DNA from: a virus
Direction: 5' to 3' (one strand)
DNA: 36,547 bases
IMG/VR virus record: IMGVR_UViG_3300042691_033510
Span: 1 to 36,547 of that record
Shown here: positions 5,078 through 36,547 of the stretch, one piece after another
How the letters are laid out: the number at the start of each line of letters is the position of its first letter
Numbering within the stretch: the first letter of the stretch is position 1
The notes under the pieces: generated by a model
Database searches by the model: none
What the model was told of the DNA's origin: nothing
Seen by the model: the letters and a program-made list of their open reading frames with translations, nothing else
Position numbers and translations under genes: made by a program

Positions 5078-5114
5078 ATGATACGGGCGAGTTGCCCGGC
5101 CTTCATACGGTTAA
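5078..5114 (-). promoter_or_regulatory. Putative late promoter (motif copy 6)
   Basis: Reading leftward, TTAACCGTATGAA (5114-5102) is followed after 18 bp by TATCAT (5083-5078). The first base of the motif overlaps the stop codon of the fibre gene. The start codon at 5071 lies about 7 bases past the -10 box, so a transcript would be nearly leaderless. A GC hairpin (CGGGC/GCCCG) occupies the spacer. It is one of six copies of the shared motif. Confidence 0.55.
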
Positions 5115-7395: not shown

Positions 7396-7431
7396 ATGAT
7401 AAGGCTCTAGGGACGGGGTTCAAACGGTTAG
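7396..7431 (-). promoter_or_regulatory. Putative late promoter (motif copy 5)
   Basis: CTAACCGTTTGAA (7431-7419), a 17-bp spacer, then TATCAT (7401-7396). This is the best copy, since TATCAT matches five of six bases of the sigma70 -10 box. It lies in the 70-bp gap between two genes. A start near 7389 would give a 25-base leader containing the GGGGGTGGTGG ribosome site of the gene at 7364. Confidence 0.6.
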
Positions 7432-8169: not shown

Positions 8170-10535
8170 TAGACCGTCCCTGTAAAGCTATTCATGCTTT
8201 CGACTGTCACGACCATGTAAGCTCCTGCCTCCTCAACTTTGAGCACCTCGCCCGTATGTACCCCCTCAGAAATCCAAGTGATCGGCACACCGTCCTGATA
8301 GAAAATCGCCGTTGAGCCTGCGCCGTCAGTGATTCGAGTCGGTTCATCTCCCCTACTTCCGACCGGCCCCATTATGCGCGAATGCTTGGTGCGACCCTTG
8401 CTGAACAGGTCAATCGTAGAATACCAAGTCTTCCTAGGGATTCGAACGGTTAAAAGGGTGCGCTGCTTGCTGTAACGGTCGAAGTAGTAGTTTAGGACCT
8501 TCCGCACTCCTTCCTGCCGAACGTGCATGTAAAAGCGCCATACGGCTGCCCTGAGGCCATATAACGCGATGGATGCCGTTGCCGCCGCTGCTCGTTGCGT
8601 GTCGTTTGAAGCTTCCCCAGTCTCCCCGTCCCGGATGTATTCAAGCTCGAGATATTTCTGGTCAATAACCTTGCGAGTGAGCGCTGCATCTGAGTTCACG
8701 GCAAGCGCGTCGGTGGAATACAGCACGTCGATGCTATTAATTAAATCGTTGTCGGGGCTTTCGGTGATGCCGAGCACCCGAAGATCCCCCCGGTGCGCCG
8801 CCTCTGAGAGGTCGAAATCGTAGGTTCCTGTTTCGGGCGTCGGGAAGTTCAGGGACATCTTGCCCGCGCGGGTCTTCCAGAGCCTTAGGCGGAACTGTCG
8901 GCAAACCTCGTTTATAATTTCAGCGACCGAGGCTGAGGATTCTTGCACCCAAGCGGCTTTCAGGTTCGATCCTATCTCGTCCCTGATGTCATCGATCTGA
9001 TCGTAATCGGCGTATGAGGTAGAGAGGTTCAGTCCCATAACGTCGTTTCGTAATAGGTAATGGATGATCGATGCCGGGTTCTCAAGTGTTGCTGACGATG
9101 CGTTATAGGGTGTGCCCGCTATCGCCTCTAAGCCTATCTTGAATTCGACGCCGTCGAACTGATAAGGGTTTGTTCCGCTCATCAAGTTGTCGAGGCGCTG
9201 AGTGTAAACGTAGTAATCACCTACGGCAGTGCCTGTTACTGTCCCCTCCGCACCAAAATCCCAAATTTGAAGTTGGAGTTCGGCAGCGGTCTCAGTCCAA
9301 CCATCTTTATTGACGGTCTGGTCGTTTGTGTAGACAGGATTCGTCGTGACGACCGTGTCATATTTTGCCACAACGTAGTTGCTGGTGTCGGTGCTGTTCG
9401 TCCACTCAAGCGTAAAGAAGTAACTGTGGCCTGGCGGCAAAACTAGAGGCTGCTGGAAGTAAAAGTTCACATCCGCGTAGGAGGTAGAGAGATTGACGGC
9501 ATCACCCACCGCTTGAGCAAGAACGCTGCCAACTGCTGCCCAGTTACTCCCGTTTACCTGAATCGCCTTTCGGACAGTCACCATGAGCTGCCCTGTTCCA
9601 GCTACAATAGTCCCAACTCGCTTAAGTCGAGCCGAGCACCCGCCAATCAGCCGAGCGTTTGTGGTGACGGTGCATCTGGTAGAGAGTCGCCATTGATACA
9701 TATTCTGGTCAGTCCCGGCAGCCCACGAAGAGGGCCCAACAAGCGGCGCCCGGAAATTATACGTGTTGTTTAGGTGAGCAAGGGGGAGCCACGAGCGCGA
9801 GTCGAGATCCAGAAACTGATTCCGAACGTATATCTGGCCGCGGGTTAATCCGATATCGTCGTCAAAGACCCCGGCGATGACGTAGATTCGCTGATAGTTG
9901 TTACTCCCGCCGTCAGAGACAATTTCAGATTTGTATAACGGACACGATGAGACGATAACGCCCGTGGTCCCATCCTCGGACTCGCCGAAACTTGAGGGTG
10001 CTGATTCCCCTATCCACTGTCTTATGTAGTTATCGACGTTTGTGGAGAAATCGGCAGCGACGAATCTGTGGCCGAATTCCTTGTCCTTGAACCACGTATC
10101 ACGCGCCTGAATCTCAAGGATATTCTCCTCGTTGCCGAAAACGATATCCACGATCTCAAGGGTCTGCCGAACATTTGCCGCGCCGTTGGTGGTCGTGGTG
10201 TCATCGGGCTTGGGGTAGTAGTAGACCGTCGCCGTTCCGTTTTGGTAATCGTGAGTAGTGAGCAGATCGCAGAAGGTCGTATTGACGTTCGAGAGCGGAG
10301 CGTGAGCAAAGATTCTCAGCGTGACGTTGTGCCTCACAGCCGAATTGATCCCGCAAGAGCGTATGCAGGTTGGCGCACCGGCAAGAAGCGGATAGACAAT
10401 CCCGCTCCCGGAATAGACGCCGGAGGCCGGATAAAACTCAGTGCCGAAGTTGTAGGTCGTGGTCCCGCTTCCGTCCTTTTTGTTCAGAACGATGGTAACG
10501 AACTCGACATCGGTATCAACAAATAGAGTGCTCAT
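8169..10535 (-). CDS. Tail hub / host-specificity (gpJ-like) protein
   Basis: 788 aa, the largest protein after the tape measure, and downstream of it and of two distal tail proteins, where siphophages place their central tail-tip protein. It is beta-rich throughout. Residues 130-180 (VDIVFGNEENILEIQARDTW) and 545-590 (VAEIINEVCRQFRLRLW, then KMSLNFPTPETG) resemble hub folds in which a short helical bundle precedes beta barrels. The C-terminal part has RTKHSRIMGP and TWISEGVHTGEVLKVEE, typical of baseplate hub ends. The start overlaps the preceding stop as ATGA. Receptor contact is inferred. Confidence 0.7.
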   Translation of the reverse strand: MSTLFVDTDVEFVTIVLNKKDGSGTTTYNFGTEFYPASGVYSGSGIVYPLLAGAPTCIRSCGINSAVRHNVTLRIFAHAPLSNVNTTFCDLLTTHDYQNGTATVYYYPKPDDTTTTNGAANVRQTLEIVDIVFGNEENILEIQARDTWFKDKEFGHRFVAADFSTNVDNYIRQWIGESAPSSFGESEDGTTGVIVSSCPLYKSEIVSDGGSNNYQRIYVIAGVFDDDIGLTRGQIYVRNQFLDLDSRSWLPLAHLNNTYNFRAPLVGPSSWAAGTDQNMYQWRLSTRCTVTTNARLIGGCSARLKRVGTIVAGTGQLMVTVRKAIQVNGSNWAAVGSVLAQAVGDAVNLSTSYADVNFYFQQPLVLPPGHSYFFTLEWTNSTDTSNYVVAKYDTVVTTNPVYTNDQTVNKDGWTETAAELQLQIWDFGAEGTVTGTAVGDYYVYTQRLDNLMSGTNPYQFDGVEFKIGLEAIAGTPYNASSATLENPASIIHYLLRNDVMGLNLSTSYADYDQIDDIRDEIGSNLKAAWVQESSASVAEIINEVCRQFRLRLWKTRAGKMSLNFPTPETGTYDFDLSEAAHRGDLRVLGITESPDNDLINSIDVLYSTDALAVNSDAALTRKVIDQKYLELEYIRDGETGEASNDTQRAAAATASIALYGLRAAVWRFYMHVRQEGVRKVLNYYFDRYSKQRTLLTVRIPRKTWYSTIDLFSKGRTKHSRIMGPVGSRGDEPTRITDGAGSTAIFYQDGVPITWISEGVHTGEVLKVEEAGAYMVVTVESMNSFTGTV
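8418..8453 (-). promoter_or_regulatory. Putative internal late promoter (motif copy 4)
   Basis: TTAACCGTTCGAA (8453-8441), a 17-bp spacer and TATTCT (8423-8418), wholly inside the tail-hub gene. The gene can accommodate the motif as LTVRIP codons, so chance is possible, but the spacing equals that of the intergenic copies. It would drive the genes from 8169 leftward. Confidence 0.45.
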
Positions 10536-14837: not shown

Positions 14838-14874
14838 AGAATAGGGCCAGGGGTGAGGATCTTCAGACGGTTAG
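14838..14874 (-). promoter_or_regulatory. Putative late promoter for tape measure (motif copy 3)
   Basis: CTAACCGTCTGAA (14874-14862), an 18-bp spacer and TATTCT (14843-14838). A start near 14831 leaves a 12-base leader containing the GGGGGTGGTGG ribosome site of the tape-measure gene. In a longer read-through transcript the same region can fold: CACCCC at 14846-14851 pairs with GGGGTG at the ribosome site, which could hide it. Confidence 0.55.
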
Positions 14875-24701: not shown

Positions 24702-26017
24702 TAGAAAGAAACGCCCTTTGATTCGAACCTGACTTCCGGCGGCTCGAGCACTATGAGCCCCATGTCCACCGCCTCCATTGGGTGGGTGGTATCCGAGTCT
24801 CCGCCGGGCTTCTTAATCCCCGCCTTGCCGTCGGTTTCGCATGTTTTTGCTGACATGATGACATTGCGGCACGACCTATCGATCTTCAAACGGTTAAGGG
24901 AGAACAAGTGGTTGGTGCAACGAGACCTCTCTTCAATGAATGGGTTCTGCCGATGCGCCTGGAGATGAATCAGCGGGTAGTGGGGTTTGAGGATCGACTG
25001 CATCACCTGATAGCCGGTTGTGTAAGTCTGGTCCGACCGATTCCAGCCCCGGGCGTCACCCAGGATCGTGATGTTGAAATGTTTGAACTGCGCGGGGGGA
25101 AAAGCGTTGATGAATTGCTGGCAGGCGTCTTGCACGTTTCGCCCGTTAGACCCGTTTTCTTTCACCACCCAGTATTCATCCCCGACCCGCTGGATGACGA
25201 CCCAGGTCATCTTCGCCACGTTCCAATCCCAGGAGAGATACATGTATGGCCAAGCCGGATTGAACGGATAATTCCCGACATGCGCCCGCTCGTCGAACTT
25301 GAAATAGAAGGCGTTGCGGGAAAGCGAGACGAACTCGCCCAGAACATAGTTTGCGTAATACAAAGGGTCCCAGCCGAACTCTCGCTCGAGCTTGGCGAGG
25401 AATCTCTTGGATAGGTAGGGGTTGTCGTGCGACCGCCCGTGCAGGAGCAGCTTGCTGTTACCTTTCGAGATTACCCCTTCTCTGGTCAGGTGCTCTGGGT
25501 TAAATCTTTCATAGACCCAATTCAGCCCTTCGGGCGTAGTGGTGTCGAGAGTCTGGGGGAACTCCGCGCGCGGGTTCCGGTTCCGCATTTCGCAGTTGTT
25601 CTTTACCTCCACCGACATGATGGAAGACTCGTCGCGCCAAATACCCCCTGTGTTGTATGACGCAATCTTTTCGGGCTTCTCGCCGCTTAGCCCGATAACT
25701 CGCTGGTCAGTGTCGTGGAAATGAAACACGAAATCGGAGCGGTTGTAGCTGTAGTCCTCGCCCTCCTCCATGCCGCAGAGCTTCAGGAACTTTTCGTATT
25801 CAACAAGGGTGCGTTGCTTGAGCATCCGATAATCAGGGGCAACGATTAGCCACTCATCGCACTTGGGAGAGCGGAGGCGCCGATACTCAAGCCAGGGAGG
25901 GCCGAAATGGGTCTTTCCATACCCTACGCCAGCCACGATGCCGTGGTCTTCGTGCTCCAGGTCAAAGAGCAGGACATCCTGCCCATGGTGAAGGGTTGCA
26001 TCCTCAGTCCTCTTCAT
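24701..26017 (-). CDS. terL: Terminase large subunit
   Basis: 438 aa. The ATPase has Walker A GVGYGKTH (30-37, Lys35), Walker B IWRDES (Asp129-Glu130) and coupling motif TTTP (159-162). The nuclease has LSWDW (Asp264), ILGDARG (Asp321) and a late acidic site GGDSDTTHPMEAVDM (407-419), as expected for the RNase H-fold. It cuts and pumps DNA into the prohead. It overlaps the small subunit by 14 bases. A copy of the promoter-like motif lies inside it at 24885-24897. Confidence 0.9.
   Translation of the reverse strand: MKRTEDATLHHGQDVLLFDLEHEDHGIVAGVGYGKTHFGPPWLEYRRLRSPKCDEWLIVAPDYRMLKQRTLVEYEKFLKLCGMEEGEDYSYNRSDFVFHFHDTDQRVIGLSGEKPEKIASYNTGGIWRDESSIMSVEVKNNCEMRNRNPRAEFPQTLDTTTPEGLNWVYERFNPEHLTREGVISKGNSKLLLHGRSHDNPYLSKRFLAKLEREFGWDPLYYANYVLGEFVSLSRNAFYFKFDERAHVGNYPFNPAWPYMYLSWDWNVAKMTWVVIQRVGDEYWVVKENGSNGRNVQDACQQFINAFPPAQFKHFNITILGDARGWNRSDQTYTTGYQVMQSILKPHYPLIHLQAHRQNPFIEERSRCTNHLFSLNRLKIDRSCRNVIMSAKTCETDGKAGIKKPGGDSDTTHPMEAVDMGLIVLEPPEVRFESKGVSF
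24861..24897 (-). promoter_or_regulatory. Late-promoter-like motif inside terL (copy 2, weak -10)
   Basis: TTAACCGTTTGAA (24897-24885) matches the shared motif fully, but the hexamer 18 bp on (CAATGT) is a poor -10 box. The motif lies in coding sequence (codons for LNRLK). It could be a weak promoter for portal and downstream head genes, a regulator-binding site only, or chance. Confidence 0.3.
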
Positions 26018-26433: not shown

Positions 26434-26469
26434 AGTCTACTGGCGAGCGCGGTTACTTCGAACGGTTAG
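26434..26469 (-). promoter_or_regulatory. Putative late promoter for packaging genes (motif copy 1)
   Basis: CTAACCGTTCGAA (26469-26457), a 17-bp spacer and TAGACT (26439-26434). The motif overlaps the last codons of the gene at 26453. Transcription from about 26427 would give a 40-base leader for terS. It would start the packaging and head operon separately from the lysozyme gene. Confidence 0.5.
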
Positions 26470-26950
26470 AGACCCTGAGGCCAGATTCGACTCGGTGTCG
26501 CTGAGCGGAAGCGAGCTGTGTGTGATGCCCGTTTGCGGCGAGCCTATCGAGGTATGGTGTGATGTCTTGCGGGAGGCCGAGGTAGCTCGCGACCCACCGA
26601 TAGGAAAAAGGGCCATCCTCGTCAGAGGTGAACCAATCCCACGCCTGCTTTGCGTGCTGCAGGAGTTCGTCGTGCTCGTTGAGCTGGTTGGTTACCCGCA
26701 TCCGACGATAGCCGCCCAGGTCAAGTTCTATTGCGGCGTTGTAGCCCTGCTGGAGTTCGTGCTCCCAATTCTCCCATGTATCTCTTGGTCTGGTAACGAA
26801 ATCATCGAGGGCCCGCCGGAACGCTGCCCAGAGAAGTTTTCTTTCGGCTTCGATGGCATCAAAAACGCTTTCTTGGGGCTCCATTTGTGGGCCCTTAAAG
26901 GAAGCTTTGCTCCCCCGGTCCAAATAGGCATCGAAAGCGCCTTCACCCAT
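26453..26950 (-). CDS. Hypothetical protein between lysozyme and terminase
   Basis: 165 aa from the ATG at 26950, which overlaps the lysozyme stop by 8 bases. The open frame extends further upstream inside the lysozyme gene, but those residues are unlikely to be used. It has helical, Trp-rich charged stretches: FDAIEAERKLLWAAFRRALD, PRDTWENWEHELQQGY and LLQHAKQAWDWFTSDEDGPF. No known motif. It could be a lysis accessory or packaging-related protein. The family is not recognised. Confidence 0.6.
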   Translation of the reverse strand: MGEGAFDAYLDRGSKASFKGPQMEPQESVFDAIEAERKLLWAAFRRALDDFVTRPRDTWENWEHELQQGYNAAIELDLGGYRRMRVTNQLNEHDELLQHAKQAWDWFTSDEDGPFSYRWVASYLGLPQDITPYLDRLAANGHHTQLASAQRHRVESGLRVSNRSK

Positions 26951-27401
26951 TTTGCAGCATCTCACAGATGCGGTCGCCTCTGCCTGGGGGCTTAGGCGTG
27001 ACCTGGTGGTACCACTTGGAATCCTTGGCGTGATAAGCGGCCGCGGCCCAGTCGCCGATACGAACCGCACCAATCATTCGCGTGAAATTAAGGAGCCGCA
27101 ATCGGCCGAGATTGAACGCCATCTCGATAAGAGCGGCTTGGCGTCGGGGCGATGCGGTATCGAAAGCATCGCCAAAAATATACTTGGCATCGGCGACGGC
27201 TACGATGATGTCTTCCGAAAGCATCTGCTCTGCGATTGCTGCGGAGATGCCGTTGTCCTCGATGTTCCGACCGTAACCTATGGTCAGCTTGCCTTCCGTG
27301 TCGGGGTAGAGTTTTAGCGCCGGGCGGCAGTTGCGACCCTCGGCGCACTTTATGTTTTCACGGGCTAGTAAGATGGGATCTGGATTAGATTCGTCCGCCA
27401 T
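26943..27401 (-). CDS. Endolysin, GH24 (T4-type) lysozyme
   Basis: 152 aa from the ATG at 27401, with GGAGG just upstream. The catalytic triad pattern of phage lysozymes is present: Glu21 in CAEGRN, Asp34 in LYPDTEG and Thr40 in LTIGYGRN, followed by MAFNLGRLRLLNFTRMI and a C-terminal DRICEMLQNG. There are three extra residues between Glu and Asp relative to T4 lysozyme. It cleaves the NAM-NAG bond of peptidoglycan. There is no signal peptide, so a holin is needed. It is the first gene of the leftward late unit. Confidence 0.85.
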   Translation of the reverse strand: MADESNPDPILLARENIKCAEGRNCRPALKLYPDTEGKLTIGYGRNIEDNGISAAIAEQMLSEDIIVAVADAKYIFGDAFDTASPRRQAALIEMAFNLGRLRLLNFTRMIGAVRIGDWAAAAYHAKDSKWYHQVTPKPPGRGDRICEMLQNG

Positions 27402-27444
27402 TTGCCTCCGCAGAAGGGGCAAGATGGGGAGATAGGCCTCGATG

Positions 27445-27510
27445 CCCGATATTCTTCCTGCTTATTCAACCGATTAAAAATTAATGGTTGAATCTTTCGA
27501 TGATATCGGG
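27445..27510. promoter_or_regulatory. 66-bp nested three-level inverted repeat
   Basis: Three nested dyads share nearly one centre (about 27478). The outer is CCCGATAT (27445-27452) with ATATCGGG (27503-27510). The middle is ATTCAACC (27464-27471) with GGTTGAAT (27486-27493). The inner is ATTAA (27473-27477) with TTAAT (27481-27485). All are perfect. The arrangement fits a regulator operator or replication/recombination site. The late-strand reading also holds an 11/13 match to the late motif (TTAATCGGTTGAA). Confidence 0.6.
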
Positions 27511-27529
27511 TATCTAATAAGGAGATTCA

Positions 27530-27563
27530 CTTCCGCTGGCCTATTTCCCACTTGCCAGCGAAG
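27530..27563. repeat. Inverted repeat CTTC(C)GCTGGC / GCCAGCGAAG
   Basis: Six plus four base pairs with one bulged C around a 13-base loop. It lies between the large dyad and the TATA-rich repeat, and may form a hairpin in either transcript or be an operator. Confidence 0.5.
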
Positions 27564-27577
27564 CACCGAACGGCCTC

Positions 27578-27603
27578 ATATATACTTATTATCAGGTATA
27601 TAT
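27578..27603. promoter_or_regulatory. TATA-rich 8-bp inverted repeat upstream of the early unit
   Basis: ATATATAC (27578-27585) and GTATATAT (27596-27603) are perfect inverted arms around a 10-base spacer. TATACT at 27581 could serve as a -10 box for the rightward unit, but no good -35 box lies 16-18 bp upstream, so an activator or non-standard sigma would be needed. An operator function is equally possible. Confidence 0.45.
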
Positions 27604-27682
27604 AGCAGGCTGAGGAGGTGCCTCGCAAAGCATAGATAACACGGGGGAAAACCCAGCGGAACTCTAAAAATAGGAGTTTCGT

Positions 27683-28774
27683 ATGGAGACACAGAAAGAC
27701 AATTTGCCTAGCCCGATATCCTCGGCGGGCTCACCTGCGATAATGGGCGCCCTCACCCCCGCCCAGGTGATTGCCCAAATACACCTAATTCAGTCGTTAA
27801 TGAGCGACGTCATGAAAGACGGCGAACATTACGGGAATATGCCTTTCCAAAAAGAAGGCGAAAAAAAGGTGCTTTTCAAATCCGGCTCAGAAAAGCTCGG
27901 ATTCACGTTTCGTCTCACTCCAAGCTTCGAAATAGACCAGCGTGACTTTCCAAATGGGCACCGCGAGATCCGCGTCGTTACCACGTTGACACATATTCAG
28001 ACCGGAGAGGTCTGGGGCGAAGGGGTTGGGTGCGCCACGACGATGGAGAGCAAATACCGGTATCGCAACTCCGAGCGAAAGTGTCCGCATTGCCTGAAAG
28101 AAACAATCATCAAGGGCAAGGATGAGTACGGCGGTGGCTGGCTATGCTTCGCAAAACGAGGCGGGTGTGGAGCTAAATTCAAAGACGGTGATGCCAGCAT
28201 TGAAAAGCAAGTCCCGGGAAAAGTAGAGCATCCCGACCCAGCCGACTACTACAATACGGTCTTAAAGATAGCCAAAAAGCGGTCGCACGTTGATGCAATG
28301 CTGACCGCCACTGCTGCCAGCGACATATTCACTCAGGACCTTGACGACATGGCCGACCTTCTTGCCGGTCAAGTAATTGACGTTACGCCTAAGGAGCAGC
28401 CTGCCGCAAAGAAGGCCGACACTCAGCGTCAGCAACCTGCGCGTAAAGCCCCTACTCCTGCCGCTGAAGATGTTTCGCAAGAGATCCTGCCAGAGCCGCT
28501 AGCAAACCCCTGGATGCACAAAATCCAATGCTCTCAAGGCGTGAGCATACAAGGCAAAGGTCGGTATCTCTTCGAGGCCAGTTATGACTGGATGGTCAAA
28601 TACACAAGTGCCGCACTCCGCAACCGCCTGTCTCCCGAAGATATCGCCAACATCATTGCAGCCCAAGCTCAGCCAGAGCTCAAAGAACCGGCTCGGGCCG
28701 CCGTGATGGGAACTCCGGCAGACGACGAAGATGACGATTACAACGCACGTTTTAGCGAACAGGAGGCAGCATGA
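27683..28774 (+). CDS. Zinc-binding recombination-associated phage protein
   Basis: 363 aa, first gene of the early unit, with TAGGAG upstream of the ATG. The N-terminal domain has MKDGEHYGNMP, KKVLFKSGSEKLGFTFRLTP, NGHREIRVVTTLTHIQTGEV and MESKYRYR, a signature I recall from a widespread phage family next to recombination and replication genes. A zinc site is likely at CPHC (134-137) with Cys155 and Cys162. A Pro/Ala-rich linker precedes a C-terminal domain of unknown type, ending in an acidic DDEDDDY tail like those of ssDNA-binding proteins. Exact biochemical role is unknown. Confidence 0.65.
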   Translation: METQKDNLPSPISSAGSPAIMGALTPAQVIAQIHLIQSLMSDVMKDGEHYGNMPFQKEGEKKVLFKSGSEKLGFTFRLTPSFEIDQRDFPNGHREIRVVTTLTHIQTGEVWGEGVGCATTMESKYRYRNSERKCPHCLKETIIKGKDEYGGGWLCFAKRGGCGAKFKDGDASIEKQVPGKVEHPDPADYYNTVLKIAKKRSHVDAMLTATAASDIFTQDLDDMADLLAGQVIDVTPKEQPAAKKADTQRQQPARKAPTPAAEDVSQEILPEPLANPWMHKIQCSQGVSIQGKGRYLFEASYDWMVKYTSAALRNRLSPEDIANIIAAQAQPELKEPARAAVMGTPADDEDDDYNARFSEQEAA

Positions 28775-29301
28775 GCTTGTACGAATTAGCCGCAGAATTG
28801 CGGGAAGTAGAAGAGTTGATTGAAGCGGCAGAGGCAGAGGGGGCGCAAGCCGCCCCTGCCCTTCTGTCCGAAACCATCGATTGTATCGAGATGGATATTG
28901 CGGCCAAAGTAGATTCCGTCGTGCGCTACATTGAGAACGAAGGTGCCCGCGAAGCTGCCCTTGCAGAAGAGATCAAGACCCTCCAGGCCAAGAAGAAAAC
29001 GGCGGAAAAGCGTCAGCAATGGCTGCGTGAGTACCTGCGTGACTTCTTGCTGAATACCGGTCGGGACAAGTTCGAGACGCGGATTCGCAAAGTGTCGCTC
29101 AAGAAGCCGGTGAAGAGTTTAAACGTCGACCTCTCCAAGCTCTCGGAGTGGGACGAGAAGCTTTATGCCACGGCGGTCAAGATTGGGGCCGTCGAGGAGA
29201 AACGCGAGGTCAAGAAGACCTTGCTCAAGGCCATGCCGGATTACCTCTCTCTGCCGGGAGTTGAGGAAGTTGAAGGCGAATACAGCATTATCATTCGATA
29301 G
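28771..29301 (+). CDS. Siphovirus Gp157-like protein
   Basis: 176 aa. An N-terminal acidic helix (SLYELAAELREVEELIEAAE) is followed by SVVRYIENEGAREAALAEEI, then LQAKKKTAEKRQQWLREYLR and the beta-rich end KFETRIRKVSLKKPVKSLNV. This is the layout of the Siphovirus Gp157 family, usually found beside single-strand annealing or ssDNA-binding genes. It is ATGA-coupled to the gene before it. The family's molecular role is not well known; a recombination accessory role is inferred. Confidence 0.8.
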   Translation: MSLYELAAELREVEELIEAAEAEGAQAAPALLSETIDCIEMDIAAKVDSVVRYIENEGAREAALAEEIKTLQAKKKTAEKRQQWLREYLRDFLLNTGRDKFETRIRKVSLKKPVKSLNVDLSKLSEWDEKLYATAVKIGAVEEKREVKKTLLKAMPDYLSLPGVEEVEGEYSIIIR

Positions 29302-29311
29302 GACAAACCCG

Positions 29312-30148
29312 ATGAAGAGCAGAGTAATTAAACCTGGTTTCTTTCTGTCCGAAGAGCTGGCGGAGCTCGACGTGCGCGCGCGTCTGCTCTTCATCGGTCT
29401 TTGGTTGGCGGCGGATCGTGAAGGACGGTTTGAGTGGCGACCAAAGAAGTTACGGGCCGAAATCTTCCCGCACGAAGCAATCGACGTCGAACCACTCTTA
29501 ATGTCGCTACATGACGCGAAATTCATCTGCATGTATCGACATGATGGTAAGGTCTACGGATTCTTACCGAATTTCCGAAAGCACCAGAAGATCCACAAAC
29601 ATGAGGCCGCCAGTGTTCTTCCTGCCCCTCCTGACAATGTAGCTACATCTCCCGACATTCCGCTACATGATCAGACAACCTTACCGAGTGTTCAAGGTAC
29701 AGGTACAAGTAAAGGTACAGGTAGAGGTACAGGTAAGAGCACCCCGCCCTCCCCGGTGGATAACTCTCCCGAGACCGTAGCCGTGGAATCTGAACCGGCG
29801 TTTGAAGCTCCGCTAACCTTCCCTGAAGGCGTCGATGACGAGGAGTGCCGCATCGCTTGGGACGAGTGGGTTGCTCACCGTCGCCACATGAGAAAGCCCT
29901 ATCGAGGACGAGCCGAGGAGCAGAAGGCGCTGAGCGTCGCCGGGAGATTCGGCCGTGAAGCCTTTCTCTGGGCGGTCAAACACTCCTTACCACCAAACAG
30001 TTATCAAGGGCTCTTCCCCGAAAAGTATCGGCCTGAAGGCCGAACACAAACCCCTTTCAAATCCGCCGCCGAGCGCAGGCTGGAGAGCCGCACGGCAGCA
30101 TTCGATGAGTTTGAGCGCAATGTTGAGAAAAAGCGAGGTGTAAAATGA
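29312..30148 (+). CDS. Phage replication initiator (winged-helix)
   Basis: 278 aa from the ATG at 29312. An earlier in-frame ATG lies inside the Gp157 gene. The N-terminal domain FFLSEELAELDVRARLLFIG, then DREGRFEWRPKKLRAEIFP, is typical of phage replisome-organiser/DnaD-like initiators that bind origin DNA. A linker encoded by GGTACA hexamers (QGTGTSKGTGRGTGK, residues 128-142) joins a C-terminal domain with EECRIAWDEWVAHRRHMRKP and YRGRAEEQKALSVAGRFG. As in lambda O, the origin may lie within the gene. Confidence 0.75.
   Translation: MKSRVIKPGFFLSEELAELDVRARLLFIGLWLAADREGRFEWRPKKLRAEIFPHEAIDVEPLLMSLHDAKFICMYRHDGKVYGFLPNFRKHQKIHKHEAASVLPAPPDNVATSPDIPLHDQTTLPSVQGTGTSKGTGRGTGKSTPPSPVDNSPETVAVESEPAFEAPLTFPEGVDDEECRIAWDEWVAHRRHMRKPYRGRAEEQKALSVAGRFGREAFLWAVKHSLPPNSYQGLFPEKYRPEGRTQTPFKSAAERRLESRTAAFDEFERNVEKKRGVK
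29696..29737 (+). repeat. Seven tandem hexamers GGTA(C/G/A)A in the initiator gene
   Basis: Units start at 29696, 29702, 29708 (degenerate), 29714, 29720, 29726 and 29732, exact 6-bp period. They lie in the linker between the two domains of the initiator. Nearby are a 12-bp palindrome ATGTAGCTACAT (29637-29648) and CGCTACATGA at both 29505 and 29661. Iteron-like arrays inside initiator genes often mark phage origins. Confidence 0.6.
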
Positions 30149-30477
30149 TGACCACAAAAGAGTCGAAAATTATTTGCGATCTCTGCTTTGCCGAGTCGCT
30201 GAAAGAGCCTACTGCTGCCGACTACGAGAGCTTTTACGGTCTGCTGCGAGATTACTCGCTCGAAGAGGCAGAGCAGGCGTTTTATCGCTGCAAGCGCGAG
30301 AATGCGATTGTTAGGTCAACTGACATCCTGAAGTCGATTCACAATTTCCGGAAGGCGCTACAGAGCAGCAATCGGCCAAACATTCCGCCCCCCCTGCCTG
30401 ACGACAAGATCCGGCAGGAGATTGAAATTGCCCGGCGGCGGCACCCAGAATTTTTCCGCGACAAGGAGGCCGCATGA
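30145..30477 (+). CDS. Small replication accessory, possibly helicase-loader-like
   Basis: 110 aa, ATGA-coupled to the initiator. The pattern CDLCFAESLKEPTAADYESF, then YGLLRDYSLEEAEQAFYRC and RSTDILKSIHNFRKALQ resembles the N-terminal helical domain of G39P-type helicase loaders/inhibitors, which sit after the initiator in several siphophages. C-terminal residues are charged with a Pro-rich linker. The similarity is by pattern only and no ATPase domain is present. It likely recruits the host helicase if the assignment is right. Confidence 0.45.
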   Translation: MMTTKESKIICDLCFAESLKEPTAADYESFYGLLRDYSLEEAEQAFYRCKRENAIVRSTDILKSIHNFRKALQSSNRPNIPPPLPDDKIRQEIEIARRRHPEFFRDKEAA

Positions 30478-30734
30478 GGCAGCAATCTGTCCAGTTCCAT
30501 CCGTATATCGACCAGCGCCTGCAGAAAGAAGCTGGTGAGGGGCAACGTGTGTCCCGACGCGTTCAGGAGATTCTAGGTGAGCACTACGTCCGCGACGACA
30601 TCGAGCAGGGGCGCGGCAACACGGAGGACGCGAAGGAGTTTCGTGACTGGTTCCGCATTTGGCAGCGAGAGAACGAACTGCGTGACGCCCGAAGGGCGGA
30701 GCGTTTAGCGAAGGCAAAAGCGCGTGGGAAGTAA
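30474..30734 (+). CDS. Ribbon-helix-helix-like small protein
   Basis: 86 aa. The N-terminal part QSVQFHPYIDQRLQKEAGEG, then RVSRRVQEILGEHYV, has a short strand followed by two helices, the plan of MetJ/Arc-type DNA-binding proteins. The C-terminal half is strongly charged and helical (RENELRDARRAERLAKAKAR). It could be a regulator of the early or late unit. Four-base overlap with the gene before. Confidence in the fold is moderate. Confidence 0.55.
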   Translation: MRQQSVQFHPYIDQRLQKEAGEGQRVSRRVQEILGEHYVRDDIEQGRGNTEDAKEFRDWFRIWQRENELRDARRAERLAKAKARGK

Positions 30735-31461: not shown

Positions 31462-31581
31462 AACAGGACTAATTCTGACGGCCCAGACGTAACTCAACGA
31501 GAGGTATCAGCGATGAAATACACACTTATTAAATTATTAATCTTTGCATTTGGCTCAGCAGTATCGAGCCACGGAGGTAGT
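31462..31581 (+). other. Leader before integrase; attP candidate region
   Basis: About 120 bp, AT-rich at 31525-31545. It contains a hairpin GGCTC/GAGCC (31552-31570) right before the GGAGG of the integrase. A frame from an ATG at 31513 (GAGG upstream) runs in phase into the integrase and encodes a hydrophobic stretch, MKYTLIKLLIFAFGSAVS. I treat it as untranslated leader or a leader peptide. attP sites often lie beside the integrase gene, but no core can be identified without the host site. Confidence 0.35.
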
Positions 31582-32580
31582 ATGTCCACGCAAGGTAATG
31601 CCAGGGGGCTCATCGCGCTCATCCAGCAGTTCAAAGACGAAGAAGTATCGAGTAACGTCCACACCTATAGGGCTAAGGAAACCGACCTGCGGCACTTCGT
31701 GCAGTTTGCTTCTGCGGCTCGCAGGGTCAAACCGTTTCAGCTTAATATTAATGACCTTAACATCGTTACAATCAGAGGTTTCATTCAGAACCGCATCGAT
31801 GTCGGGGAAGCGCCTGCCACAATCAACAGGCGTATCTCTACAGTAAAGCATCTCTGCAACTGGCTCGACCTTGATGTGGAACCCCAGGGCTGGCGAAATC
31901 CGGCGATAAAGGTTCGTAATCTGCCAAAGCAAAAGGTGCATAGTCCCGATGCTCTTACGGCCGAGGAGGCTGAACGTCTCAAGTTCGCGGCGAACCAATA
32001 CGGCACCACCGAATTCATGCAAATGCGCTCGCGCGCCATTGTGGAAACCGTGCTCGCCACCTCGATGCGGCCTGCAGACTTACGTAGGCTGAGGCTGAGG
32101 CACCTTTCCGGCGACCTCACGAAGATCCTCGGCCTGCCGACCAAGTTTCAGCGGGTTCGTAACTACGTGGTGCGCTCGGACCTCCGGATGGTGCTTGAAA
32201 AATGGATCTACGTAAGAGAGTCCGCACTAGTTGACCGAATAGACGGTTACCGCGGGCTTACGAACCAAGAGAAGGAAGAGCTTCCTCTCTTTCTCAGTTT
32301 TCGGGGTTCTAACCTGCGCGAACCCGAATCGTTTCAAATGGCTACCAAAACGATCTACCGCACGTTTGCAGGAGCAAGCGGCATTGCAAAGATTCCGGTC
32401 GCCGCTGGCCGCAAGTGTCGGCACACGTTTGCCCACCAGGTTCTCGACGCGACCAAAGACATCCGACTGGTGTCGCAGTTGCTTGGCCACAGCGATGTCA
32501 GAACCACCATGCGTTACACCGAACGGTCGGACGCGCAAATGGCGGAGCAACTCGAGAAGACAAGACGAAGAAGAGCATAA
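31582..32580 (+). CDS. int: Tyrosine recombinase / integrase
   Basis: 332 aa from the ATG at 31582, with GGAGG upstream. The core-binding domain is residues 1-115 (NVHTYRAKETDLRHFVQFAS). The catalytic domain has Arg163 (TSMRPADL), Lys188 (TKFQR), Arg280, His303 (LLGHSD) and the nucleophile Tyr312 (MRYTE). In the box usually HxxR the sequence is R277-K-C-R280, so the first His is replaced by Arg. It integrates the genome or resolves dimers. It lies among early genes with no repressor nearby, so expression and lysogeny control are unclear. Confidence 0.85.
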   Translation: MSTQGNARGLIALIQQFKDEEVSSNVHTYRAKETDLRHFVQFASAARRVKPFQLNINDLNIVTIRGFIQNRIDVGEAPATINRRISTVKHLCNWLDLDVEPQGWRNPAIKVRNLPKQKVHSPDALTAEEAERLKFAANQYGTTEFMQMRSRAIVETVLATSMRPADLRRLRLRHLSGDLTKILGLPTKFQRVRNYVVRSDLRMVLEKWIYVRESALVDRIDGYRGLTNQEKEELPLFLSFRGSNLREPESFQMATKTIYRTFAGASGIAKIPVAAGRKCRHTFAHQVLDATKDIRLVSQLLGHSDVRTTMRYTERSDAQMAEQLEKTRRRRA

Positions 32581-33512: not shown

Positions 33513-33719
33513 GTGAAAAGAAGATACTCGTACGAAGAGGCTGTAGACGAAGTGAGAAGCAGAATTGGCTATGGCTGTAGTGCCTCTGCGCTCGCCGAAA
33601 AATGCGGAGTCTCCCAGTCTATGGTCTCTGAAATTCTCAGCGGGAAGAAAACCGCATCTCTGCAAACAATGAAGAAACTTGGCTACGACGTTGTGTTCGT
33701 TCGGAGGAAAAGAGCATGA
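33513..33719 (+). CDS. Small HTH (XRE/Cro-like) DNA-binding protein
   Basis: 68 aa with AGGAGG eight bases before a GTG start. The helix-turn-helix is CSASALAEKCGVSQSMVSEI followed by LSGKKTASLQTMKKLGYDVV, like Cro or XRE regulators. It is the only clear HTH regulator in the early unit, so it is the best candidate to bind the nested dyad at 27445-27510, but it sits 6 kb away and lacks a sensor domain. ATGA overlap with the next gene. Confidence 0.7.
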   Translation: MKRRYSYEEAVDEVRSRIGYGCSASALAEKCGVSQSMVSEILSGKKTASLQTMKKLGYDVVFVRRKRA

Positions 33720-34278: not shown

Positions 34279-34932
34279 ATGAAAGAGCGACCGATACTTT
34301 TCAGCGGCCCTATGGTGAGCGCGATTCTCGATAGGACTAAGAGTCAGACTCGTCGGGTGGTAAAGTTCCCCATCAAGTGCCCTGACTCTGGATGCGAATT
34401 AGCAGGGAACGAATTGAATGGCGAACTCCAGCGACACGCCGGGCAGACAAACCGCGTATGCCCTTATGGCGGTCCAGGCGATCGCCTTTGGGTGCGCGAG
34501 ACTTGGCAGCATGCGCCTTCGGATTACTGCTACTGCCCTCAACCGTCGGAACCGACTCCTTGTGACCGTTGGAGCATGGGTATCGGCTGCCGACGCCGAC
34601 TTACAGAGGTTCTTTACCGCGCAGATAGGCACGAGGCACCTAGCTGGAGGCCGTCAATCCACATGCGTCGTGAAGATAGCCGGATTACGCTTGAGATCAC
34701 TGGCGTCCGAATTGACCGCCTTAACAACATCAGCGAACGAGACGCGCAGGCGGAGGGGGCGTGCCGAGAGCTGCGACCCGGATTGTCTGATGAATTTTAT
34801 GGCTACGACAATCATCGCTCCTACAGGAACGGGTTTCACATTTTGTGGGAATCTATCAACGGCGCAGAGTCGTGGGCAGCAAATCCCTGGGTCTGGGTAA
34901 TTGAGTTCAAGAGAGTTAACGATGACCGCTAG
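34279..34932 (+). CDS. ASCH/PUA-like phage protein
   Basis: 217 aa. The start PILFSGPMVSAILDRTKSQT (RR) is the hallmark of a widespread phage family. It is followed by YGGPGDRLWVRETW, SWRPSIHMRREDSRITLEIT, and the C-terminal ESINGAESWAANPWVWVIEF. These fit the ASCH (PUA-superfamily) fold expected to bind nucleic acid. A Cys-rich insertion (residues 83-104, YCYCPQPSEPTPC) may bind zinc. Function in the phage is unknown. GGAGAGAGC lies before the ATG. Confidence 0.75.
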   Translation: MKERPILFSGPMVSAILDRTKSQTRRVVKFPIKCPDSGCELAGNELNGELQRHAGQTNRVCPYGGPGDRLWVRETWQHAPSDYCYCPQPSEPTPCDRWSMGIGCRRRLTEVLYRADRHEAPSWRPSIHMRREDSRITLEITGVRIDRLNNISERDAQAEGACRELRPGLSDEFYGYDNHRSYRNGFHILWESINGAESWAANPWVWVIEFKRVNDDR

Positions 34933-35113: not shown

Positions 35114-35378
35114 ACCAATCTTGTGCAAGTGCGGCAAGGAGATGCGCCAATTCACTTGGGAAGGTGACAACTGGAACTGTCAATGCGGAAAGATGCGAAC
35201 GGCACGTGAGGTCTATCTAGAACAGAAGGCCAAAAGAGACGCGGGATTCTTTCAAATCTTTCTGGAGCACGTCATAAAACCCGGCGCAGATGCGAAGGCG
35301 GAGAAGGAGCGGCAGCAGCGAGAGGATCAGCGAGTATATCGGGAGATGGTTGAATCATCGGGGAGAGGCAATGGATAA
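35097..35378 (+). CDS. Zinc-ribbon protein
   Basis: 93 aa from the ATG at 35097, with GGAGG upstream. Two knuckles, CKCGK near residue 10 and CQCGK near residue 29, form a four-cysteine zinc ribbon. The rest is a charged helix with EKERQQREDQRVYREMVE. It is a small DNA/RNA- or protein-binding candidate. Phage zinc-finger proteins such as P2 Ogr act as late activators, but there is no direct link here, only the shared idea of a small Cys4 protein. Confidence 0.6.
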   Translation: MSYVAEPILCKCGKEMRQFTWEGDNWNCQCGKMRTAREVYLEQKAKRDAGFFQIFLEHVIKPGADAKAEKERQQREDQRVYREMVESSGRGNG

Positions 35379-35993: not shown

Positions 35994-36460
35994 CGCCTGA
36001 ACGCCGAACGCTACTTTTCAAGCTGCTACGCCTGGCCGGGTCTGACTCCGAGCCAGAAGCACTATCAGCGATGAGGAAAATCAAACTGACGATCCAGAAG
36101 GAGAGCATGAACTGGAATCAGTTTGTGGAGATGTGCGAGAAACCCGCCGCTCAGGAGTCTAGCTCGCGAACCGGATTCGGGAATAGCCGCAGTTGGCATC
36201 AAAGTGGTTTCGCTTCAGACGGTTTTGAGCAGCACTTCAATAACGCCTTCAATCGGAGTTTCTACCGAGCGTGGGCTGGTAGTGCATTTTGGGACGAGCC
36301 CGACACCGAAGAGAGGAAGCGGAAGCGAGAAGCGGCAGAAGAAGCGAAGAGGCAAGCGGAAGCCGCTCAGAAAGAGAAAGATGAACACCGATCGCGTTGG
36401 GAAGAGAGAACAAGAGCTGCGCCGAAGAATTCTCGATGGTTTCGAGGTGCAACATTTTAA
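35990..36460 (+). CDS. DUF2786-like protein, crosses the genome join
   Basis: 156 aa from the ATG at 35990 (ATGA overlap). An alternative ATG at 35975 has a better-placed AGGA and would add five residues. RRTLLFKLLRLAGSDSEPEA, then LSAMRKIKLTIQKESMNWNQ resembles the helical N terminus of DUF2786 proteins. It is followed by a Ser/Phe-rich linker (GFGNSRSWHQSGFASDGF) and a charged coiled-coil tail. The last 149 bases are repeated at the start of the window. Function is unknown. Confidence 0.6.
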   Translation: MTPERRTLLFKLLRLAGSDSEPEALSAMRKIKLTIQKESMNWNQFVEMCEKPAAQESSSRTGFGNSRSWHQSGFASDGFEQHFNNAFNRSFYRAWAGSAFWDEPDTEERKRKREAAEEAKRQAEAAQKEKDEHRSRWEERTRAAPKNSRWFRGATF

Positions 36461-36547
36461 CCGCCCTGCAAGGGCACAAAAAGGAGAAGACGATGCAAGC
36501 TGTTAAAGAAGAAACTACCCCCCCCCAATACGGGGAAACTAACTTAG
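36312..36547. repeat. Terminal direct repeat, right copy
   Basis: Second copy of bases 1-236, exact over its length as read. It closes the genome into a circle, so the small-gene region at 1-2470 continues directly from the early region that ends here. Confidence 0.95.
36493..36547 (+). CDS. 5' fragment of the gene at 182..481
   Basis: The redundant copy of the start of the next gene on the circle, cut by the end of the window. The ribosome site AAGGAG and ATG are the same as at 182. Confidence 0.85.
   Translation, partial: MQAVKEETTPPQYGETNL

Follow-up and report, generated by a model that had tools for sequence, protein, structure and literature searches.

A three-level nested palindrome at positions 27445-27510, located at the sole early/late divergence point of this uncultured phage, is proposed as the operator to which a dimeric DNA-binding protein of the phage would bind. 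From the sequence, this reading is assigned a probability of roughly 0.58. The element is most likely a genuine regulatory palindrome of a general kind that is already known, with uncertainty in the detail. The firmer result is a family of six late promoter boxes.

The nested palindrome in the divergence gap

The window, i.e. the whole stretch of 36,547 nucleotides analysed, is a complete phage genome: bases 1-236 are identical to bases 36312-36547 as a direct terminal repeat, and the circle comprises 36,311 bp. This 236-bp repeat is the evidence for completeness; the IMG/VR record itself carries no completeness estimate. The early genes run rightward from 27683 across the joint to 2803 and encode a Gp157/Gam-like protein, a lambda-O-like replication initiator, a tyrosine integrase and a small HTH_3 protein. 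A tRNA-Cys (gca) is located at the end of the early operon (2399-2469). The late genes run leftward from 27401 to 2902, with the lysozyme, the small and large terminase subunits and the portal protein followed by others; the further late genes without family matches are presumably structural. The portal protein had no match among 50,697 phage records. The 281-bp gap at 27402-27682 is the single divergence point in the genome and contains the nested palindrome. The gap, its flanking genes and the palindrome comprise the following features:

26943-27401, minus strand: lysozyme, first late gene, ATG at 27401 preceded by GGAGG
27683-28774, plus strand: first early gene, PHROG 10048, function unknown
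27445-27510, no strand assigned: three-level nested palindrome, 66 bp, proposed operator
27445-27452, plus strand: outer left arm CCCGATAT, perfect, 8 bp
27503-27510, plus strand: outer right arm ATATCGGG, perfect partner of CCCGATAT
27464-27471, plus strand: inner left arm ATTCAACC, perfect, 8 bp
27486-27493, plus strand: inner right arm GGTTGAAT, perfect partner of ATTCAACC
27473-27485, plus strand: innermost level ATTAA-AAA-TTAAT with a central A-tract, arms at 27473-27477 and 27481-27485

A preliminary description of this DNA had reported a perfect, nearly concentric palindrome of three levels over 66 bp, and all three arm pairs are indeed present at this place. Their centres fall at 27477.5, 27478.5 and 27479, a spread of at most 1.5 bp. 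Drawn as a single hairpin, the inner two levels form one arm of 13 pairs with an unpaired G at 27472 and an AAA loop, and the outer arm can be extended to 27441 (GATGCCCGATAT / ATATCGGGTATC, 11 of 12 pairs). The inner arms are separated by 14 bp, their half-site centres are 22 bp apart, and the A+T content of the 30-bp core is 77 %.

With 21 paired bases the element outranks every other nested palindrome in the genome, the runner-up having 16. A score of 21 was reached somewhere in 2 of 12 shuffled genomes, and an equal strength within the 281-bp gap in 2 of 2000 gap shuffles. In a fixed rarity test, defined as two concentric perfect 8-bp arm pairs inside 70 bp, the real genome had one such structure, while any such structure occurred in 6 of 300 shuffled genomes. 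The assertion that random sequence rarely yields this arrangement is therefore sound for the gap and only moderately so genome-wide. A chance origin at this position is unlikely, but the genome-wide rarity is not astronomical. The structure has probably been selected, but taken by themselves the sequence statistics are of moderate strength.

The palindrome was present in three other IMG/VR contigs, 100 % identical with zero differences over 7.5-11 kb, and searches for relatives by terminase and portal led to the same three contigs. Relatives identified via the first early gene (protein identity up to 61 %) had no similar palindrome upstream of that gene, and their records contained no portal match. 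Pattern scans of IMG/VR with the core palindrome retrieved only the known copies and one further locus, L038, with no independent copy in a like context. L038 was rejected as an independent copy: it sits at the end of an unrelated gene on another phage contig and is probably a terminator. L038 and the window have one unrelated protein in common; the PHROG 874 protein at 34279-34932 shows 33 % identity to its counterpart on this unrelated contig.

Three further elements lie in the gap or close to it:

27489-27517, plus strand: possible rightward promoter TTGAAT-17 bp-TATCTA in the right half of the palindrome, with a poor -10, missed by the consensus scan
27578-27603, no strand assigned: second palindrome ATATATAC-10 bp-GTATATAT, candidate early promoter/operator, with TATTAT (plus) and GATAAT (minus) inside
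27712-27719, plus strand: third copy of CCCGATAT, at the beginning of the first early gene

The consensus scan of the gap found no promoter. The second palindrome, approx. 70 bp beyond the nested one, is AT-rich and, judged by its -10-like TATTAT and GATAAT, could host the early promoter just as well. The nested palindrome would then influence the early genes from upstream, or only the lysozyme. A CCCGATAT triple of any such kind was obtained in 166 of 5000 shuffles. At 27654-27683, AACTC-TAAAAATAG-GAGTT flanks the ribosome-binding site of the first early gene and may form a hairpin hiding it. Both arm motifs also occur in swapped order at 35336-35355; this site is inside a coding sequence and was taken as chance.

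Late promoter boxes and the match inside the palindrome

The genome contains six YTAACCGTNYGAA sites, all of them on the late strand, compared to an expectation of 0.07 per strand within two mismatches of TTAACCGTTTGAA. Thus the late promoter box invoked in the preliminary description exists:

26457-26469, minus strand: late box CTAACCGTTCGAA, -10 TAGACT at 17 bp
24885-24897, minus strand: late box TTAACCGTTTGAA, weak -10 CAATGT at 18 bp
14862-14874, minus strand: late box CTAACCGTCTGAA, -10 TATTCT at 18 bp
8441-8453, minus strand: late box TTAACCGTTCGAA, -10 TATTCT at 17 bp
7419-7431, minus strand: late box CTAACCGTTTGAA, -10 TATCAT at 17 bp
5102-5114, minus strand: late box TTAACCGTATGAA, -10 TATCAT at 18 bp
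27465-27477, minus strand: TTAATCGGTTGAA, weak seventh match inside the palindrome, 64 bp upstream of the lysozyme start and without a -10 at 17-18 bp

Five of the six boxes are followed at 17 or 18 bp by a TANNNT -10 (TATCAT and TATTCT twice each, TAGACT once), the sixth by CAATGT. Four boxes lie 25-70 bp upstream of late-gene starts and two 184-272 bp upstream. The arrangement looks like a phage activator site that replaces the -35 element and is combined with a -10 for the host RNA polymerase. With a late promoter family specific to the phage, one would expect it to encode a transcription regulator of its own. In distant relatives the late box was not enriched, and reversed control patterns scored alike.

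The seventh match is the left inner arm of the palindrome read on the late strand. It had been described as 11 of 13 identical to the late box but lacking a spaced -10, which is correct for TTAATCGGTTGAA against TTAACCGTTTGAA at 24897. Among the seven late-strand sites within two mismatches it is the weakest, with a score of 12.5 compared to 17-21 for the six real boxes (leave-one-out). Two positions invariant in all six boxes are altered (AACCGT to AATCGG), and the late-promoter core, AACCGT with GAA 2 bp further on, is missing from the palindrome copy (27477: AATCGG). At 17-18 bp the sequence reads GGGCAT/GGCATC instead of a TANNNT -10. The right inner arm has no box match at all, because one base is missing. 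The score was reached in 32 of 4000 gap shuffles (0.8 %), and it is equalled or exceeded by an unrelated site (903, minus strand) antisense to an early gene. A good inverted partner was found near none of the six strong boxes, and a mirrored late box occurred nowhere in the IMG/VR pattern scan.

From this match a shared recognition protein had been surmised. The box family is real and the 11 of 13 match holds, but with two invariant positions broken, no -10 and the right arm unmatched, the sequences only suggest one protein recognising both the palindrome and the late boxes. Considering also the weak score and the missing inverted partners at the six boxes, such a protein is only possible. A further step, doubtful in our judgement, would be a single phage protein for which lone late-strand boxes serve late activation, while the same motif doubled inversely at the divergence shuts off the early operon. 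If so, the choice between activation and repression would depend on how a single box is oriented and how many copies are present, and would be made by a protein unrelated to phi29 p4.

The proposed operator and known phage systems

The inner half-sites flank an A-tract at a spacing of 22 bp, roughly two turns of the helix, which suits a dimer bound to one face of the DNA. We propose that the dimer would grip the inner half-sites ATTCAACC and GGTTGAAT, and that the outer arms CCCGATAT and ATATCGGG may constitute another pair with its own recognition or extend the site cooperatively. With less certainty, the bound protein may block rightward early transcription, since the right inner arm overlaps TTGAAT, the only candidate rightward -35 in the element, and might prepare or modulate the expression of the leftward lysozyme-terminase block. 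One candidate binder is encoded in the early operon:

33513-33719, plus strand: 68-aa HTH_3 protein

Its earlier designation as a helix-turn-helix protein agrees with the HTH_3 assignment. The second binder named at that time, a ribbon-helix-helix protein at 30474-30734, found no support in Pfam, PHROGs, PDB sequences or its low-confidence fold and was rejected (model pLDDT 70, no strand, no match).

Since phages commonly have operators where their genes diverge, the palindrome itself is unsurprising. In temperate lambdoid phages, the immunity operators OR and OL, bound by repressor and Cro, are small palindromes between divergent promoters. The phage studied here likewise has an integrase and an HTH_3 protein; however, its HTH gene is neither beside the operator nor divergently transcribed, and one nested site takes the place of the tandem 17-bp copies. 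In phage phi29, the p4 sites at the early/late junction consist of CTTTTT-15 bp-AAAATG with half-site centres 21 bp apart and A-tracts; p4 covers the -35 elements of the early promoters, causing repression, and activates the late promoter (PMC3100819). The predicted site resembles the A2c-A2b-A3 region of phi29 in having inverted repeats at the early/late junction with a nearly equal geometry (22 bp, central A-tract). In contrast to the four separate sites of phi29 there is one nested site, and the arm sequences differ. Scans of early proteins against Pfam and PHROGs yielded no p4 homologue. Phage Mu has several late promoters with a common site for the activator C at the -35 region (PMC4461284). 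Similarly, the six YTAACCGTNYGAA boxes appear to share an activator site in the -35 region, but the sequence differs from that of Mu, no C relative was found, and the palindrome cannot be counted among the six boxes with confidence.

Alternative readings and the regulatory map

The symmetry could reflect merely two host-type promoters placed back to back, with outward TTGAAT -35 elements in the inner arms and an AT-rich centre acting as the upstream element of both. TTGAAT is present in both inner arms, TATCTA follows at 17 bp on the plus strand, and the high A+T content of the core would fit. We consider this unlikely: the consensus scan detected no promoter, the leftward -10 position is occupied by GGGCAT/GGCATC, and the perfect 8-bp outer arms are left unexplained. 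Rather improbable is a role as leader RNA, in which a leftward transcript from 27578-27603 crosses the palindrome and folds into a structure that controls elongation or lysozyme expression. The predicted fold is stronger than that of shuffled sequences (minus strand -27.6 kcal/mol, z -3.07; plus strand z -2.79), and the -10 of a weak leftward promoter match, GATAAT, is located within the second palindrome. Yet Rfam matched a tRNA elsewhere and nothing at the palindrome, a U-run for a terminator is missing, and the perfect symmetry is explained equally well at the DNA level. An intrinsic terminator, i.e. a G+C-rich hairpin with a T-run, was excluded, as the scan found none at the palindrome and no T-run is present.

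Improbable, too, is a functionless chance or relic palindrome. Shuffled genomes contained equal strength somewhere in 2 of 12 cases, and the element is absent from all relatives found beyond the identical contigs; the 2 of 2000 for the gap, the position at the sole divergence point and the overlap of one arm with the weak late-box match speak against it.

The location had been described as one where a control switch or an origin is expected. As the only divergence point it is best read as a control site; an origin is unsupported, with candidate repeats located in the initiator gene. We regard a replication origin or primase-loading hairpin, at which the strand extrudes or folds and starts replication, as very unlikely. 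The single-strand DNA fold has a z of -2.28, and the cumulative GC skew has its minimum near 24-26 kb, but the GC-skew check suggested for an origin gave no support, as the skew tracks gene direction. In lambda-type phages the origin is inside the initiator gene. Correspondingly, a search for lambda-type iterons in or beside the initiator gene (29165-30148) revealed AGGTAC tandem repeats at 29695-29735 and none at the palindrome, and DnaA-like boxes were at chance level and located elsewhere. The nearly seven AGGTAC copies may be a candidate origin as in lambda O, or a coding linker (GTGxGTG). The initiator reading frame also contains a perfect 15-bp inverted repeat CCGATGAAGAGCAGA (29309-29323 / 29383-29397, 59 bp apart). 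Least credible is the attP site of the tyrosine integrase (31513-32580): the phage encodes this enzyme and nested inverted repeats occur at attP sites, but the gene is 4 kb off, the half-sites are 14 bp apart versus 6-8 bp, and no integrated copy, host or host attachment site was found.

Read as an operator, the nested palindrome marks the likely control centre of a phage lineage that is otherwise undescribed. Together with the six-box late promoter family it provides a short regulatory map that can be tested.
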